A DNA stretch of 64,000 nucleotides. It comes from Triglochin maritima (Eukaryota > Streptophyta > Magnoliopsida > Alismatales > Juncaginaceae). The position numbers and the translations under genes were made by a program. The notes below the pieces were generated by a model. It made no database searches. It was not told where the DNA came from and saw only the letters and a list, made by a program, of their open reading frames with translations. Numbering within the stretch: the first letter of the stretch is position 1; each line of letters begins with the position of its first letter. Of this stretch, positions 23,545 through 36,887 are shown in pieces. The stretch lies in assembly GCA_963682175.1 (NCBI GenBank), contig OY821782.1, positions 394,501 to 458,500 of the forward strand. The letters run 5' to 3'.

Positions 23545-23564
23545 CACCCCACCACCAAACCCTA

Positions 23565-23927
23565 TGATAGCAGTCAAAATAAATGAAGTGACGTGGCCAA
23601 TCGTAATTGGTCTAATACACTTGATGAAGATTGATGACTTGGCATATTTTGATTGGGTGTTTGGGGGTTACATGGATTCTATGTTAGTTAGAGTTAGTTT
23701 TAGTAGTTAGAGTTAGTTGGAGTTAGTTAATTGAAGTGGTTGTTGTAGCCTATAAATAGGTCATCACTTGTACTTGTATAAGCATCCATTTTGAATAATG
23801 AAATCTTAGTTTGGTTATTGTGTTTGTTTGGAGTTTTGTGTCACTCGAAGAGCACTAATTGTATCGGTTCGTAGTTGGTGATCGCATTCATGAGTCCGGT
23901 CCGGAGTGGATCCGTTGTGGGCTAACA
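23565..23927 (+). repeat. 5' LTR (363 bp) with TATA box
   Basis: Begins TGATAGCAG, ends GGGCTAACA. It contains CCTATAAATAGG (TATA box, about 23749-23760), followed 3' by AATAATGAAAT, a likely polyadenylation context, so U3, R and U5 can be placed roughly. Several GTTAGTT-type units (GAGTTAGTT, TTAGTAGTTAG) repeat at 23680-23730 in U3. The 5-bp target duplication CCCTA precedes it. Confidence 0.95.
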
Positions 23928-23930
23928 ATT

Positions 23931-23942
23931 TGGTATCAGAGC
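23931..23942 (+). other. Primer binding site for initiator tRNA-Met
   Basis: TGGTATCAGAGC, three bases after the 5' LTR, is the exact complement of the 3' end of plant initiator tRNA-Met and the standard minus-strand primer site of many plant LTR retrotransposons. Confidence 0.95.
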
Positions 23943-23957
23943 CTCCTCTGGACAACT

Positions 23958-25565
23958 ATGACGAGGAGATCACTTTCTTTAGAGGAGATTCACCCCTACC
24001 AATATTGCGGCGACGAAGACGTGGAGTTTTGGATAGCGTACATGGAGGAGTATTTTGCTTCCAAGCAAATACGAAAATCTTTTCAAATCCGTATGGCGGG
24101 TTATTATCTCGTCGAGGAGGCGTACGAATGGTTTCGGTCGTGGTACCGCAATCATTCAAAAGATTCTACATGGTTGGATTTTGTTCAAGCGTTGGTATTT
24201 CGATTTGGGAGTAAAAACGAGGAGCAAGATGAGGCCCAACAAAAGGAAATTTGTACAATGCAAGAAGATCTTATGCTCATGTCTCATATGGGTGAAATGT
24301 GTGCAATTCAAGAAGATCCTATGCTCATGTCTCATGTCGGTGAAATTGGTGCAATTCAAGAATATCCTAGGCTCGTGTCTCATGTTTGTGAAATTTGTGC
24401 AATTCGAGAATATCATTTGCCGCCACAAGAGCGTCGAATTGAAGCCGGAGCACTTGCATCCCGTAGTCAACCACCAGTTCATCAACATCCTCATATTGAT
24501 CAAAGAGCATGCACAATCATGCGAGATGTTGGCACGTCAAGAATTGAAAGGAAGGGAGTTGTTACCGTGGTTGCATATTTTCTTGGGCTATCTACAGTAA
24601 AGGCCATTAGAACAGTACAAAATCACGTCAAGATCCAGCGTTTGCATGAAAGTCTCCATGTCGAAGGCGAAAGACCGCCGGCCGAGCCTCCGCCAAAACC
24701 CATAGTCTCCTCGGACTCACCGACCAAATCTTTCTACTCTTCCCATCAGAGCATCAGAATCATTGGAGGAGCTGTCACAACGGCCACTCCCACGACAAGG
24801 ACGATGGGATCTTCAAGCTCGGTCTTGTCGCCATTGTCGTCCTTGTCGAGTACCATCTCCCTAACACCAAGATCCCACCTTTCCACCACAAATCGCGTTA
24901 AATCGTGGTTCTGGAACGACCCATCTCGTCGATTTGGCGAAAGAGGTCGCGATTGGGCGTCGATGGGGTGCTCTTTCTCGGGGTTGAACGCTTTGTACGA
25001 GGCCGTGAACGGTGGGGCGGACGTCTGGATTAACCAGAACCGATTTAGGATCGTGAGGCAGCTAGGAGAAGGTGGATTTGCCTTTGTTTACCTCGTCAAG
25101 GAGATCGTCAGAGATGGGTCTGTTGGTGGCTTGGCCTTGAAGAACCAATCTCATGTTTCAGATGATGATATGTATGCGTTGAAAAAAGTGCTGATTCAAA
25201 CTGAGGAGCAGCTGAAGCTTGTGAGACAGGAGATTCATGTTTCATCCCTGTTTAATCACCCCAATTTGCTTCCTCTTCTTGATCATGCGATCATTCCAGT
25301 TAAGAGTGCACAAGGAGACTCGCAAAATCATGACGCATACTTGTTATTTCCTGTTCATCTCGACGGTACATTGTTAGACAATGCTAAAGTAATGCAATCA
25401 AAAAAGGAGTTCTTCTCCACAGTGGTGGTTCTTCAGATCTTTCATCAGATTTGTGCAGGATTAAAGCATATGCACAGTTTTGGTCCTCCATACGCACACA
25501 ATGATGTGAAACCTGGTAACGTCCTCATTACTCACAGGAAAGGACAATTTGAATGGTGGGACTAG
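23958..25565 (+). CDS. Gag-like / truncated STK16-type kinase fusion ORF of the retrotransposon
   Basis: 535 aa from the first ATG after the PBS; the frame is also open upstream to 23859. Residues about 15-85 form a retrotransposon Gag domain (VEFWIAYMEEYFASKQI, AYEWFRSWYRNHSKDSTWL, QALVFRFG). Residues 99-150 are a 16-residue repeat. After a Pro/Ser-rich linker, a kinase segment starts at residue 336 (24963) with MGCSFSGLNALYEAVNGG. It holds the glycine loop LGEGGFAFVYLVKE, YALKKVL with the catalytic lysine, HPNLLPLLDH and the catalytic loop AHNDVKPGNVLI. It stops before DFG, so it cannot be a complete kinase. The segment matches plant STK16-like kinases (NAK relatives; the N-terminal MGC suggests lipid modification in the parent). 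It is intronless over about 600 bp, which suggests capture from spliced RNA. No zinc knuckle, protease or polymerase is present. Confidence 0.85.
   Translation: MTRRSLSLEEIHPYQYCGDEDVEFWIAYMEEYFASKQIRKSFQIRMAGYYLVEEAYEWFRSWYRNHSKDSTWLDFVQALVFRFGSKNEEQDEAQQKEICTMQEDLMLMSHMGEMCAIQEDPMLMSHVGEIGAIQEYPRLVSHVCEICAIREYHLPPQERRIEAGALASRSQPPVHQHPHIDQRACTIMRDVGTSRIERKGVVTVVAYFLGLSTVKAIRTVQNHVKIQRLHESLHVEGERPPAEPPPKPIVSSDSPTKSFYSSHQSIRIIGGAVTTATPTTRTMGSSSSVLSPLSSLSSTISLTPRSHLSTTNRVKSWFWNDPSRRFGERGRDWASMGCSFSGLNALYEAVNGGADVWINQNRFRIVRQLGEGGFAFVYLVKEIVRDGSVGGLALKNQSHVSDDDMYALKKVLIQTEEQLKLVRQEIHVSSLFNHPNLLPLLDHAIIPVKSAQGDSQNHDAYLLFPVHLDGTLLDNAKVMQSKKEFFSTVVVLQIFHQICAGLKHMHSFGPPYAHNDVKPGNVLITHRKGQFEWWD
24252..24413 (+). 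repeat. In-frame 48-bp tandem repeat (3.4 copies) in the Gag part
   Basis: Units start at 24252, 24300, 24348 and 24396 (the last partial). Each encodes 16 residues of the type CAIQEDPMLMSHVGEI. Copies differ by a few substitutions, the third most. The length is a multiple of three, so the reading frame is kept. Confidence 0.85.
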
Positions 25566-25569
25566 TGCT

Positions 25570-26260
25570 ACGACGACGGCAAGAAGAGTTGCAGACAAGC
25601 TGTTTGACAAAATGCGGAACTTGGCGATAACCATCTTAAGATGTGGAAGTGACGCTAATGATGCCAATTAGTCTTGGAGACAATGCTCCTAGTGCTGCAA
25701 GGGAAGTGTTCGATGGAATGCTTGTGAGGGTGGCTCCAATGTTTTGATACTTCTAACTTACGCTCTCAAGGTGTTCGATAAAATGCCTGGGTGGACGTTG
25801 CTGGATGTGGATGACGAGAAGGGCAGGAATATATATCTATTGATTGAATCACCAACTTCAAGGTTGACCTTAGATGTGTGCCTCCAAATTCACAACTATT
25901 CAGCCATGGGAGTCGTCGAGAATGATCAAGCCTCATCCCTTTGTTTTGAAAACATGTAGCTTTTGTGATGCGATTGGTTTCCTTGGAATTTTGGGTTTCG
26001 TGGATGTTTCTTTTCTTCTTATGCAGCCCAACCAAGGATTTCACAGTCCACCTGAGAGTCGGCTTACCCAACCTTGATATCAAATTTGCAAAGAATGCTG
26101 CACACAAGCTGCTCGACGAAATGACTATATGGGTTACATTCATCACAATGAGGCTACAATTGAACATGACAAGGTCTGGTGGTAAGATGGAAGATTGGGC
26201 CGAACTTCCATGCCTTACGAAGAAGATAATCGAGGACGTAAAGGGAAACAATCCCTAGCA
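25570..26260 (+). pseudogene. Captured non-coding filler with PPR-like fragments
   Basis: Downstream of the fusion ORF the frame is broken, but short stretches echo the A-helix of pentatricopeptide repeats: ADKLFDKM (25596), AAREVFDGM (25700), ALKVFDKMPG (25765) and AAHKLLDEM (26098). The spacing is irregular and stops intervene. This may be debris of a second captured gene. The resemblance is short and could be chance; no function is claimed. Confidence 0.3.
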
Positions 26261-26329
26261 AGGCCACCATGGGTTCATCATCCAAATTCGTTGCATTTCA
26301 TCCACAACCTTGGGGACAAGGTTGATTTT

Positions 26330-26342
26330 AAGGGGGAAGGAG
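26330..26342 (+). other. Polypurine tract
   Basis: AAGGGGGAAGGAG, ending one base before the 3' LTR, is the expected plus-strand primer site. The preceding translated text (NLGDKVDFKGEGVD) resembles the far C-terminus of Ty3/gypsy polyproteins, probably the only trace of pol. Confidence 0.85.
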
Positions 26343-26343
26343 T

Positions 26344-26706
26344 TGATAGCAGTCAAAATAAATGAAGTGACGTGGCCAATCGTAATTGGTCTAATACACT
26401 TGATGAAGATTGATGACTTGGCATATTTTGATTGGGTGTTTGGGGGTTACATGGATTCTATGTTAGTTAGAGTTAGTTTTAGTAGTTAGAGTTAGTTGGA
26501 GTTAGTTAATTGAAGTGGTTGTTGTAGCCTATAAATAGGTCATCACTTGTACTTGTATAAGCATCCATTTTGAATAATGAAATCTTAGTTTGGTTATTGT
26601 GTTTGTTTGGAGTTTTGTGTCACTCGAAGAGCACTAATTGTATCGGTTCGTAGTTGGTGATCGCATTCATGAGTCCGGTCCGGAGTGGATCCGTTGTGGG
26701 CTAACA
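26344..26706 (+). repeat. 3' LTR (363 bp), identical to the 5' LTR
   Basis: Base-by-base reading shows no difference from 23565-23927. It is followed by the second CCCTA duplication (26707-26711). Its TATA box points toward the bZIP gene about 1 kb downstream, so read-through or new promoter activity is possible. Confidence 0.95.
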
Positions 26707-27738
26707 CCCTAACCCCTCCCAAAGCTTCGCGTCCGGCCTTCTCCGGCCCGAGTTTTGGGGTTCGTTTTCAGAGCTTTGGTGGTGCTTTTGTGTGTGAGAC
26801 TGGAGTTTTGGTCGGTTTTTTGCGTAAAGTTTTGTGCTTTCGGAATGTGGGTTCGGTTTGGGGATTTGGGTTGTCGTTTGTTTTGGGTTTTGGTGGGTGC
26901 GTAGAATGTGGGCTTGGGGGAGGGTGTTTGTGTGTTTTTTGTCTTAACTTTCGTGCTTTTGGATTGTGGGTTTGGTTTGGCGATTTGGGTTGGCGTGGGT
27001 TTTGATGGCTGCTTTGGTTGGAGGTGTTGGGGTTTTGGTTCTTTTGATGGGTGTGGAGAATGTAAATAGATTTCGGTCGCTGTTGTATCAGTCTGATTTG
27101 GTTTTCGGGGTTTGATTTCTTGCTTCTGGGGTTTTAGGTGCAAAGGGTTTTGGTGTTGAGCTTCTTTTTTTTGTAATGGGATTTTTCATGTATAGTTTGA
27201 GTTAGAATATGCACGGCTTGTTTGTTTGATTGATTTGTTGTTGTTGTTGAAGTATTTATTACATTTTTTATTCAAATAGATTGAGTTGGAATATGCACTG
27301 CAACTGTCGCTTGTCTTTGTTAATGGCTTTTATGATAGAATAGGTTTCAGGTTTGGGTTGCAGAGTTTGTGAATGTTCTATGTTAGAACTAGGATTTGTT
27401 GTATTCAGTTTTGTTACACAGTGGGCTTGTTTGGATTAGGGAACTCATGCTTCGAGAGTCATTTTCTATGTTGTTTCTGTTTTATGTTTTAAGTACAATC
27501 AAACATGTTGATTAGATAGTATGTTTTTCTTTGGAGTCTACTTAATGATCGGAAGAAAATACCATTTTCTAATTTCGATAAGTCATTTTGTTTTTAAAAA
27601 GCAGCATTGGACCTTTTGAAGCTGGTTGTTTTATGTTTCATTGGTTTATTGGTTTGCAATTTGTTTCTCTGCAGAGGTTGATCAGCATTTAAGTCGATTG
27701 AATTAGTAGAAAGTGTTAAGCCGAAGAATCATATTAGG
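26707..27738 (+). promoter_or_regulatory. Leader and 5'-UTR intron of the bZIP gene
   Basis: The sequence after the insertion continues the original CCCTAACCCC motif into a GC-richer leader (about 26712-26760), then a T/G-rich stretch with no ORF of note that reads like a 5'-UTR intron. An acceptor TTCTCTGCAG ends at about 27674, leaving some 65 bp of leader before the ATG at 27739. The original promoter lies on the other side of the retrotransposon, so transcription must cross the element or start in it. Confidence 0.45.
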
Positions 27739-29806
27739 ATGTCACGGCTTTCTCAACTTCCTCCTCGGTTCCCAGTTCGAAATGCTGGATCCTCAACCCA
27801 CCTTGTGAATCTCATCTCCCCCAAAGAAGATGAGTTGGAGGTACCAAAGTGTAGGCTCTCATCCCAAGGTTCCATGTTCGAAGAGCAGCCCAAGTGGCTC
27901 GATGATCTTCCCGATGACTGTGGAACGAGTTCGAAGTTGACCCCCCTTAGGAGAACAGTGAGTGACCCAGTAGCTACTCTTGAGGGAAGCTCGATATTTG
28001 ATTTTTCAGCTTTCCCAATTGAAGATGATGTCTCTTTTACAAGTGATGCTTCTGGTGGACTAGACGCCGATTGTCTATATGGTCCAAATTCTCCCAGGAA
28101 CACCAACAACTTAACCCCATCGGAGAGCTCGGTGGTATCTGCTGTTTTTGAGAGTGTCAACAGCAATCCCTTTCAGTTTATCACCATGGATGGCCTAGGC
28201 AGTTGTGTAAGCGAACGTAATGCTGGAGGTGAAAATTTTGTTGCAGCCAACAACTTAGATACAGAGAAACAATCAAGAAGGTACCACTATCTTACTTGTA
28301 AATTCACTAACCAATATACAAGTAAATGACTAATTGGTACTTCACTACAGATGAAACAGTCAAGTGTGATATATATTTCGTAGTTCATGATATTTTATTA
28401 TCCTAAACAATCTTCTCGTATGATTTACTTTGTTAAAGTTGGTTCGGTGGAAACCTATTTTTTTATTTATTTGTTATGTCATTTGTTTTTAGGTGTTTTT
28501 ATTTTTATTTTTCTCAAATCAAAGTCATTGTGATTGCCTTCTAGTTGCGTGTTATGTGTCTTAAGTTCGTATCTGTGAAATGTTCCTTACATTCTTCTGT
28601 TTCAGAAATGATTTCTCCTTCACAAATTTCTTCCGTGTACCAATATGTGATCTTTTGAAAAATAATAACCTCTCTTATCAACTTTTTATATATTCCAGAC
28701 TACCGGTGAATCAAAATGTCCAGGAGGGGAAACAGACAGCGCATATTGGCACGTAATATATATCATTTTCAGTGCTCTTTTGCTATCTAGGAACTCAAAA
28801 TGCTCACTTTCTTCCATTTCCCCTTTAAATATTTCCTTAATTATTGTTTGCATAATCTTGTCTATTCCGCTTGTATATATGGCCACTTAATTTTATTAAA
28901 AATATTTTTCATTCAAACTCTTTCTTTTCTTTCAAGTTTCAAATGTTGAAGAAAAAACATATGCATCAGGTTCACATTCTGTTTGGATTTGAACATATCT
29001 TGTTCTTATGCTTACACCACTAACCATTCAGTTTTCAGTTTTGCCATGATTTGCTACACCAATAATATCTTATTATCTTTTGTTTTACCGATAGAAAATT
29101 ACTACTAACCTTTACATGTTGAGCAGTTGAGTGACATTTTTTTGATGATTAATGAGCCTCAGTTGAATATTTCCAGGCATAATGGGCAGAGATCAAGAGT
29201 ACGCAAACTTCAATACATTGCTGAACTTGAAAAAACTGTCAATGTTTATCAGGTATACATCTTATGCGTACCAAAGCCATTGCTAACATTTAGCAATCAT
29301 ACTTGTATACTTATATTGACTTCTTCTATTTGCTAGACTATGGGAGCTGAAATGGCTGCCAAGGTTGCTTTCCTCTTCCAGCAAAGGGCCATATTGTCCT
29401 TGGAAAATAGCACCCTAAGAAATAAGATGGCAAGTCTTAAGAAGGAAAAAGTTGTCAAGGATGGTAAGTAAGGCTCGTAAAGCTTTGAGTTTCTACATTT
29501 TACCAAATACCAAAAAAATGTGCATATAATGGTAAAAGAATCGCCATTTTCAGATGAATTTTGAGATTTCATACGATGCCTTTGTTTTTCCCCCTCAATG
29601 ACACAGGACAATATCAATCCCTGAAGAATGAGGTGAACAGATTAAAGAGCAACAATGCCCGTCGAGCTAGAAGCAAAAGCACTATGTGTTTTCCACTAGA
29701 ATCAGTCGACAAAGAGTCCCTACCAACCAATTGGTCGACGTTGAACATTGAAAAGCTTAGCCTGAAAGAGAAAGCAGCTTCTTCTCTTCATGGAATTGGA
29801 AATTAA
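27739..29806 (+). CDS. Atypical bZIP transcription factor (At4g06598/At1g58110-like)
   Basis: Five exons: 27739-28280, 28699-28752, 29177-29252, 29337-29463 and 29607-29806. They total 999 nt, 332 aa, in phase. The N-terminus [13 protein letters not shown] and the [13 protein letters not shown] and LRRTVSDP blocks are typical of a small plant bZIP subfamily. The bZIP part is split over exons 3-5: [20 protein letters not shown], then [19 protein letters not shown] and [20 protein letters not shown]. The basic region is unusual: normal bZIPs have N-x7-R, but here the position of the invariant Asn is Gly, with Thr where subfamily relatives have Arg (GTHNGQRSR). Direct DNA binding may therefore be weak; dimerisation through the zipper looks intact. 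Exon 2 is the weakest junction, though only this acceptor for exon 3 keeps the frame. The retrotransposon lies about 1 kb upstream. Confidence 0.85.
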
Positions 29807-35022: not shown

Positions 35023-36887
35023 ATGGAGGTTGGTGGTTCCAGTACTGGTTCAGTTAGAGGTAGCTACGCTTCACAGGGTCCGGTAGACAGATCAGTGTTG
35101 GTTTTGCAGGCCAACCACAAGTCAGACTTGTTCAAAGATTTTGTAAGTATTTTACATTTTCAAATTAAATATTTGCACGTGAGTTTCAATATTCTGAAAG
35201 TTATCTAAATTTATGCAGAAGGATGTTGATGGTGTAAAATGCGTTGAGCATGGATCGAAGCTCAACGCATGGCAGATCACTGATGAGAGGATGTTGTTCC
35301 TGCTAGATATGGCAGGGTTTGACACAGTAACTCGGTTGGGCAGAGTTCAGTTGGATCATACGTTGCTGGGGGCGATGGTCGAGCGTTGGAGACCGGAGAC
35401 TCATTCATTTCACCTGCGACATGGTGAGATGACGTGCACATTGCGTGACATCTCGATGATTACCGGCTTGCGCGTAGATGGATTGCCGGTGTGCGAGTCT
35501 CAGGAGTACGATTGGTCAGAGGTTTGCATGGATTTATTGGGTCAGGTCCCCGATGATTTGGGTCGTAAGGGTTCCGTAACTTTGGGTTGGTTGCAAGCTC
35601 AGTTTCAGCACTTGCCTTTTGATGCTGACGAGGAGACAGTTACACGACACACCAGAGCCTTCATTTTGTTCCAGCTGGGATGCAGTATATTGGCAGATAA
35701 GAGTGGCACGATGGTTCACTTGAAGTACCTATCCTTGCTTGGAGATTTGGCAGTCGCATCGGAGTACAGTTGGGGTAGTGCGGCTCTGGCCCACTTATAT
35801 CACATGTTAGACGAAGCCTCACTGATTCCGACGAAACATTTGTGTGGTTTTCTTACGTTCCTGCAGTTGTGGTGTTGGGAACATCTACACATTGGCAGAC
35901 CTTTGAAGAGGAGACCTTTAGCATACCCGGAGGACGACAGGGCACCATTAGGTGCCCGTTGGAGACGACCAAGAACATTCAAGGGTAGTGCGAAGACGAC
36001 CACACTTGATTTTTATCGTAATGAGCTGGACGTGCAGGAATTCGATCAAGTGATCTGGGACCCTTATGCAAATTTGCTACTTAATCAGTTACCACCATTA
36101 TGTACGGAAGGTTCAGAGATCTGGACGAGTCGCACTTGGCTTATAAATTTTGGTGAGGTGGTTATGCATTGTCCAGACCGAGTGATGAGACAGTTCGGTC
36201 TACAGCAGCACATTCCAGAGCCAATGGAGAGACATGTAGTGAAATCGGCTCAGGGGAGGTCGGATGTTAATTGGTTGGTGGAAAATCACCAATTCATTCA
36301 GCATTGGTCGCACCGAAGAGATCATCTACAGTTTGAGCGACCACTCCTAGGTGCCAATCCTGAAGAGAGCACACGACTGTATATGGAATGGTACTGGAGC
36401 ATCACCGTCCGTTGGATAGTTCAGCACGTCTTGGCTCCAAATAATACATTATATAGACCTCGAGCGGGTAGAGAGCGAGAGATGGTAAGATTTAAACATT
36501 TATTTTAATAATGACCATGTATTGAAATTGTGTTTTACTGTTTCATAAACTTTTAATGAACTGTAGGTGCATGGGGTTTATGAGTTTCACGAAGAACTCC
36601 ATCAAATTCACCAGGTGATCAAAGATCACAAGACAGGCTCTTCGATGGTTGGAAAATTAAAGGAAAAAATGAAGGCTTGGCTTATGTGTTTTGGTGCTGA
36701 AGAACCCACATTACATTTGAGTCAAGATCGCGTGGTTGAAGAAGAAGATTCACAGTCTCAAGAAGACGCTGGCGGTCTGACTCAGGATACTGAGAATGCA
36801 GCACGAGGAGGGGGACGCGGCAGGGGGAGAGGACGTGCTCAAGCACGTCCTAAAAGGAAGAAGAGATTGAGAGGTCACTTAGGATAG
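35023..36887 (+). CDS. Plant mobile domain (PMD) protein, MAIN/MAIL-like, carried by the MULE
   Basis: Three exons: 35023-35142, 35219-36484 and 36567-36887, all in phase, 568 aa. The core (about residues 50-420) is a plant mobile domain: MLFLLDMAGFDTVTRLGRVQ, LLGAMVERWRPETHSFHLRH, EMTCTLRDISMITGLRVDGL, FILFQLGCSILADKSG, YSWGSAALAHLYHML and FLQLWCWEHLHIGRP. The domain is known from the Arabidopsis genes MAIN, MAIL1-3, which act in silencing and genome stability, and from many transposons. The C-terminus is acidic, then Gly/Arg-rich and basic (GGGRGRGRGRAQARPKRKKR), a likely nuclear localisation or nucleic-acid-binding tail. No frameshift or stop, so the gene has been kept functional or is young. 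Its role in the element is unknown. Confidence 0.88.

Follow-up and report, generated by a model that had tools for sequence, protein, structure and literature searches.

The 64,000-nucleotide stretch of the Triglochin maritima genome analyzed here (positions 394,501 to 458,500 of the forward strand of contig OY821782.1, assembly GCA_963682175.1; hereafter the window) contains a long terminal repeat (LTR) retrotransposon of 3142 bp, located at 23565-26706, whose one long open reading frame (ORF) joins a Gag-derived module to part of a host kinase. Very probably this is a young, non-autonomous, Ty3/gypsy-related copy that gained its kinase by two template switches of reverse transcriptase onto a co-packaged, spliced mRNA from a gene on C8, with a helper acting in trans and a passenger as the protein product.

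Structure, copies and age of the element

Details of the element are given in Table 1. The LTRs are identical at all 363 positions, start with TGATAG and finish with CTAACA. An initial annotation of the window had proposed a young insertion with identical LTRs, a perfect 5-bp target-site duplication (TSD), a primer-binding site (PBS) and a polypurine tract (PPT); all were found. Paired LTRs with TG..CA ends, TSD, PBS and PPT are the marks of a non-autonomous LTR retrotransposon, and no Pfam match to protease, reverse transcriptase or integrase was returned by the four element ORFs submitted (the whole element being only 3142 bp). We take the PBS to be of the initiator-Met tRNA type, and CCTATAAATAGG in the LTR to act as a TATA-box-like promoter motif. 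Two short ORFs, of 3 and 11 codons, lie upstream of the main ATG.

Table 1. Features of the element, in window positions.
Feature	Position	Strand	Basis or remark
Left TSD, CCCTA	23560..23564	.	
5′ LTR, 363 bp	23565..23927	+	identity to 26344-26706
TATA-box-like CCTATAAATAGG within LTR	23749..23760	+	motif match; second occurrence at 26528
PBS, TGGTATCAGAGCC	23931..23943	+	sequence, 3 nt past 5′ LTR
Chimeric ORF, 535 codons with stop	23958 (ATG)..25565	+	open in 5/5 kinase-bearing copies (534-535 aa)
Gag-derived module, 96 codons	23958..24245	+	capsid-domain part
48-bp tandem repeat, 3.5 copies, in ORF	24246..24414	+	
Element middle segment, in frame	24415..24866	+	genome matches
Captured spliced kinase mRNA, 680 nt, exons 1-4	24867..25546	+	exon joints 25161/25162, 25304/25305, 25448/25449
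5′ junction microhomology CCAAGA	24867..24872	+	common to element relatives and donor gene
Donor 5′ untranslated region (UTR) before kinase ATG, translated in frame, 32 codons	24867..24962	+	
Kinase coding part, MGCSFSG to GGFAFV, ALKK, HNDVKPGN	24963..25546	+	Pfam, donor comparison
3′ junction microhomology GGACA	25542..25546	+	common to element and donor
3′ element sequence past ORF	25566..26343	+	0-1 differences per tested segment to nearest L033-type relatives
PPT, AGGGGGAAGGAGT	26331..26343	+	purine run immediately 5′ of 3′ LTR
3′ LTR, 363 bp	26344..26706	+	LTR comparison
Right TSD, CCCTA	26707..26711	.	perfect match to left copy

The chimeric ORF is the only one in the element longer than 190 amino acids. 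Its Gag-derived module and the captured part are separated by 207 codons of element sequence (codons 97-303, comprising the tandem repeat and the middle segment); past codon 303 come 32 codons of kinase 5′UTR, 194 codons of kinase and then QFEWWD-stop, which spans the joint back into the element. Pfam recognizes Pkinase at amino acids 397-529 (E 2e-13) and Ty3_capsid at amino acids 28-93 (E 7.8e-5, below the curated cut-off). The closest relative of the kinase part among solved structures is STK16 (2buj). A protein search with the full ORF, in which the 7998 candidates with the most words in common were scored, found 353 proteins: the 120 listed contain kinase domains and span 36-39% of the query. 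The kinase part is nearest to angiosperm proteins, the best match among those listed being from Anthurium (81%). The Gag and middle parts have no homologue in the protein collection at E 1e-3 (3883 candidates). A host-gene origin of the middle segment was considered and is largely, though not wholly, excluded: 29 of its 34 genome matches (all 34 candidates scored) fall at loci with other element matches, and five (on C1, two on C8, on C17 at 4.69 Mb and on C6 at 50.96 Mb) were assigned to neither source.

The captured segment was also used to search the 1.06-Gb assembly, on which all genome searches were made. It returned five element copies together with gene exons (13 of 13 candidates scored), so that the element is neither unique nor, as the initial annotation had allowed, a damaged isolate. 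The five kinase-bearing copies have ORFs of 535, 535, 535, 535 and 534 codons, all open, and TSDs that are all perfect and all different (CCCTA, AACAG, GCGAG, GGGGC and GTCTG). Five separate perfect TSDs lead us to reject chance or mis-assembly. The uninterrupted, in-frame Gag-kinase ORF first described is thus present in every kinase-bearing copy; its Gag portion, however, is part of a capsid only, and the 207 intervening codons mean that the two domains are not directly joined.

None of the five copies shows a substitution between its LTRs: 0 in 1815 sites, which sets a 95% upper limit of ∼0.17% divergence. At 1.3e-8 substitutions per site per year, a rate for grasses, the insertions would be no older than about 60 thousand years; slower rates give older limits. 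LTR-pair substitutions are absent from 13 of the 21 family copies read, indicating that the family as a whole is young. At two places family LTRs in opposite orientation adjoin or lie within 300 bp of each other (L039, C7:4469000-4474900, and C11:7981855-7982902), an arrangement that insertion of one copy at or next to another would produce.

Donor gene, joints and probable capture by template switching

The donor is an STK16-type kinase gene on C8. It has GT..AG introns at the three captured exon joints and the element lacks all three, that is, it holds host exons in spliced form. Because the introns are gone exactly at the splice sites, capture at the DNA level is rejected, and the RNA-level capture proposed at the outset holds: the parental gene is not itself intronless. 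Compared over the captured 680 nt with the spliced C8 sequence, three copies (window, C7 and C4) differ by one nucleotide each and the C20 copy by two; the C10 copy has a 3-nt deletion inside the segment. A duplicate gene on C9 differs at 20 positions and is rejected as donor on that count, while two farther paralogs (C5 and C6) show 76-83% identity. At the sole difference common to the copies they carry the C9 base, and so it may be the C8 reference allele, not the element, that has changed. A kinase-less copy of the family lies ∼10 kb from the C9 duplicate (L045, C9:5766696-5769669, and L029), although the donor is the C8 gene.

The limits of the captured segment are only partly those first described. 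The kinase part had been said to begin at MGC; the capture in fact begins 96 nt upstream, in the donor 5′UTR. It had also been said to stop short of DFG, and so it does: the ORF ends GQFEWWD, where the C8 donor runs on in the same exon with PPFAILMDFG (GQPPFAILMDFG).

Each end of the segment lies at a short word common to element and donor, CCAAGA at the 5′ joint and GGACA at the 3′ joint. Nine of the 16 kinase-less relatives read (L032-L039 and L047) match both flanks and carry ∼410 bp of other sequence in the kinase's place. The two flanks have different nearest relatives. The 5′ neighbor (el 501-1311, where el denotes a position counted within the element) has L032 or L047 as its nearest relative, at 0-7 differences in each segment tested, and is separated from the next sub-lineage by 11 or more; the 3′ neighbor (el 1978-2155 and 2204-2740) shows 0-1 differences to the L033 type in the window, C7, C4 and C20 copies, L032 being 96% identical over el 1978-2156. 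In the C10 kinase copy el 2431-2740 is instead L045/L047-like, and the R/U5 part of the window copy is nearest to L033/L045. Frequent switching between co-packaged RNAs would explain such mosaic copies. The shared joint words, together with flanks from two sub-lineages, suggest that reverse transcriptase switched templates to a host mRNA already spliced, and the simplest reading is that the kinase event itself joined L032/L047-like and L033-type sub-lineages.

A source for the missing enzymes is suggested by L063, on C3. Its open frame of 1528 amino acids has Pfam matches to capsid, protease, reverse transcriptase, RNase H, integrase and chromodomain, identifying it as a chromovirus. Amino acids 16-89 of the Gag module are 41% identical (over 74 amino acids) to amino acids 124-196 of the L063 frame, the first 450 amino acids of which were compared; this identity and the Ty3_capsid match relate the element's Gag to the Ty3/gypsy capsid. 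Since the Ty3_capsid match in L063 extends from amino acid 141 to 288, the element retains only the front part of the domain. Across the LTR end and PBS the two elements share 25 nt at 92% identity (E 1.7e-5), which makes a chromovirus-type helper acting in trans plausible. In a genome search with the Gag module (100 matches listed, 150 of 216 candidates scored), matches of at least 55% identity lie in frames of at most 612 amino acids; frames of 776-1537 amino acids match only at 41% or less.

Together these observations suggest the following course of events. A chromovirus-type element would have supplied reverse transcription in trans to the non-autonomous element, with whose RNAs the spliced mRNA of the C8 gene was co-packaged. 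Minus-strand synthesis on a first element RNA would have crossed at GGACA into donor exon 4, proceeded back through the donor mRNA to its 5′UTR, and jumped a second time at CCAAGA onto another element RNA. With the frame kept, the product would be an ORF made of a capsid fragment, the element middle, a 5′UTR peptide and the kinase N-lobe and catalytic loop; it is because the insert is in frame that the ORF became a Gag-kinase chimera. The chimera would afterwards have been mobilized to five loci.

Several points weigh against this account. Short words such as CCAAGA and GGACA can arise by chance. The remaining seven of the 16 relatives (B type) have no match across el 724-1977 and are therefore uninformative on the replaced stretch. 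Recombination between L032 and L033 could have occurred before or after the kinase event. As to the helper, the remaining LTR and leader gave just one more match to L063, of 15 nt (E 0.38), and an LTR search in which 40 of 138 candidates were scored found no helper with matching LTRs.

Possible maintenance of the frame, fate of the product and alternative routes

It is possible, though we think it doubtful, that the ORF is upheld by selection: translation of an open frame with Gag at its head might be required in cis, whether to stabilize the RNA, to package it or to tether it to helper particles, and the cargo at the C-terminal end could then vary almost at will. A long frame of 453-535 codons is present in 17 of the 21 copies (kinase-bearing 5/5, A type 6/8, B type 6/7; L047 is without it), despite differing C-terminal parts behind the common Gag module, and other frames of the compared stretches contain 2-20 stops. 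Indels in the ORFs of intact copies are multiples of three save near the C-terminal end (the unalignable L032/L033 stretch excluded), but in-frame indels are already implied by counting intact copies. Moreover, the 21 copies were those that matched the window element best at the DNA level, a choice that over-samples young ones; of the 45 matches that reached 55% identity in the wider search with the Gag module, just 18 lie in a frame of at least 450 amino acids without a stop. A null simulation gave a joint P of ∼0.05 for the absence of stops. The ratio of nonsynonymous to synonymous differences (pN/pS) is 0.30-0.73 in the true frame, a range that overlaps the 0.28-2.54 of wrong frames and differs from it only slightly. 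For the Gag module, nine of ten chosen pairs give a ratio of substitution rates (dN/dS) of 0.30-1.12, and the other pair has no synonymous changes. Among the five kinase copies the ORF varies by four amino-acid changes and the loss of one codon; synonymous changes are absent. The youth of the copies alone may explain their open frames.

A wider version of this idea, which we hold to be unlikely, makes the family a gene-capturing shuttle: a capsid-fragment module would head an open frame selected in cis, template switching would exchange the host and element stretches that follow it, and the resulting cargo peptides would be tethered to helper virus-like particles. On this view the kinase capture, a SAR1 capture described below, the mosaic copies and the variety of C-terminal parts would each record a moment of one cycle.

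The kinase part retains the glycine loop, the lysine motif and the HxDxKxxN loop and is without DFG, activation segment and C-lobe; it is not a complete kinase domain. Given the usual meanings of these motifs, and as far as the sequence allows a judgment, any protein produced would most likely be a passenger devoid of catalytic activity, since DFG and the activation segment are lacking. Of the two roles raised by the initial annotation, that of a packaged kinase-like decoy thus finds no support, and that of a simple passenger is the likelier. MGC is internal, and the N-terminal lipid signal would accordingly be lost. That the fusion nevertheless affects the host, as a dominant-negative kinase decoy or as a source of small RNAs silencing the C8 and C9 kinase genes, appears very unlikely. 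Near-identity to the donor mRNA would make small-RNA targeting possible, and passages of PMC3726574 report unique small RNAs on 85 of 672 LTR-captured genes in rice and 812 of 1343 in sorghum; a decoy, however, would have to work without DFG and activation segment and with its MGC terminus buried, and no selection signal is measurable in the kinase copies.

Also very unlikely is read-through transduction after the classical model of retroviral oncogene capture, whereby the element would have inserted near the C8 gene, formed a joint spliced transcript with it and later recombined. Promoter insertion with read-through can yield oncogene capture (passages of PMC4276931), but the 8 kb examined around the C8 gene hold no element sequence besides the captured exons, and both joints are sharp, one in the 5′UTR and one in exon 4, each with words common to both sides.

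A second capture, known systems and surroundings

Capture of host sequence would not be confined to the kinase. L066 (C19:3462100-3466900), an older relative of the family, contains at 1-450, on the minus strand, a fragment of a SAR1 GTPase gene (Pfam Arf, 8e-12; PDB SAR1b, 4e-15). Its element match starts at CTCCAATGTT, and matches to genes on C7 (98%) and C10 (96%) extend through those last 10 nt: by match coordinates only, donor and element overlap by 10 nt at the fragment's 3′ joint. The SAR1 stretch is uninterrupted in the C7 and C10 genes. Further matches to the fragment lie within or close to copies of the element on C9, C4 and C17, and one on C22 is unassigned (9 of 9 candidates scored). 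Judged by these matches, the SAR1 fragment is a second host-gene capture by the same family, in another branch.

Gene capture by LTR elements is known in plants, as the initial annotation recognized, and capture as such is not unusual: Bs1 and hundreds of maize, rice and sorghum cases exemplify it. How plant retroelements take up host transcripts is generally deduced from copies of greater age. Bs1 has no pol and a link to Gag. In passages of PMC13317346 it is described as a maize LTR element with host-gene pieces joined in a chimeric gene and several captures per element. The present element likewise carries host-gene pieces in a chimeric ORF; it differs in its donor (an STK16-type kinase, with SAR1 in another branch), in the single capture seen per branch, and in having one difference per 680 nt to the donor, five intact copies and both joints readable. 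TR-GAG elements, of which one transposed in Arabidopsis ddm1, have two LTRs, a single GAG ORF and no pol (passages of PMC8704663). Ours shares the two LTRs, the single Gag-headed ORF and the lack of pol, but instead of a whole GAG it has a capsid part followed by element-specific sequence and host cargo. Maize has 425 elements with gene fragments, representing at least 189 captures (PMC2774510), and rice and sorghum have 672 and 1343 LTR-captured genes (PMC3726574); in contrast, the passages of these sources describe no Gag-kinase ORF that is in frame and has its two joints resolved.

A parallel in form is offered by acute transforming retroviruses, which carry Gag-kinase fusions. They depend on helpers (passages of PMC4276931), and in both systems a helper-dependent element has a host kinase replacing element sequence in frame behind Gag. 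The resemblance is one of form only, since here the kinase is cut before DFG and no active kinase is expected. Within that limit the element represents a plant equivalent of kinase transduction by retroviruses. A limited literature search found, by title, no plant Gag-kinase element in print. Passages of PMC13317346, PMC3726574, PMC2774510, PMC7264820, PMC8704663 and PMC4276931 document as established not only Bs1 and the hundreds of LTR captures but also template switching and helper-dependent transduction. What is described here is gene transduction of the Bs1 kind, a known process in an unusually fresh case. Since a single assembly holds the donor, relatives without the kinase, both joints and the five fresh insertions, the template-switch model becomes testable at nearly single-base level, and populations can be surveyed for new captures by the family.

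Three minor observations concern the 3′ part of the element and its surroundings. The sequence at 25566-26343, in the window and in relatives, encodes repeated short peptides (LFDEM/VFDKM/LFDKM) in several frames that resemble pentatricopeptide repeats; such an origin was rejected, the three 3′ ORFs submitted having no Pfam match. By eye, a candidate ORF for a bZIP-type transcription factor (27682-28329, + strand) starts ∼1 kb downstream of the element, and the insertion may therefore occupy that ORF's promoter or 5′UTR. Farther on, at 35198-36508 (+ strand), a 436-amino-acid ORF is, also by eye, a candidate plant mobile domain protein, a transposon-related type.

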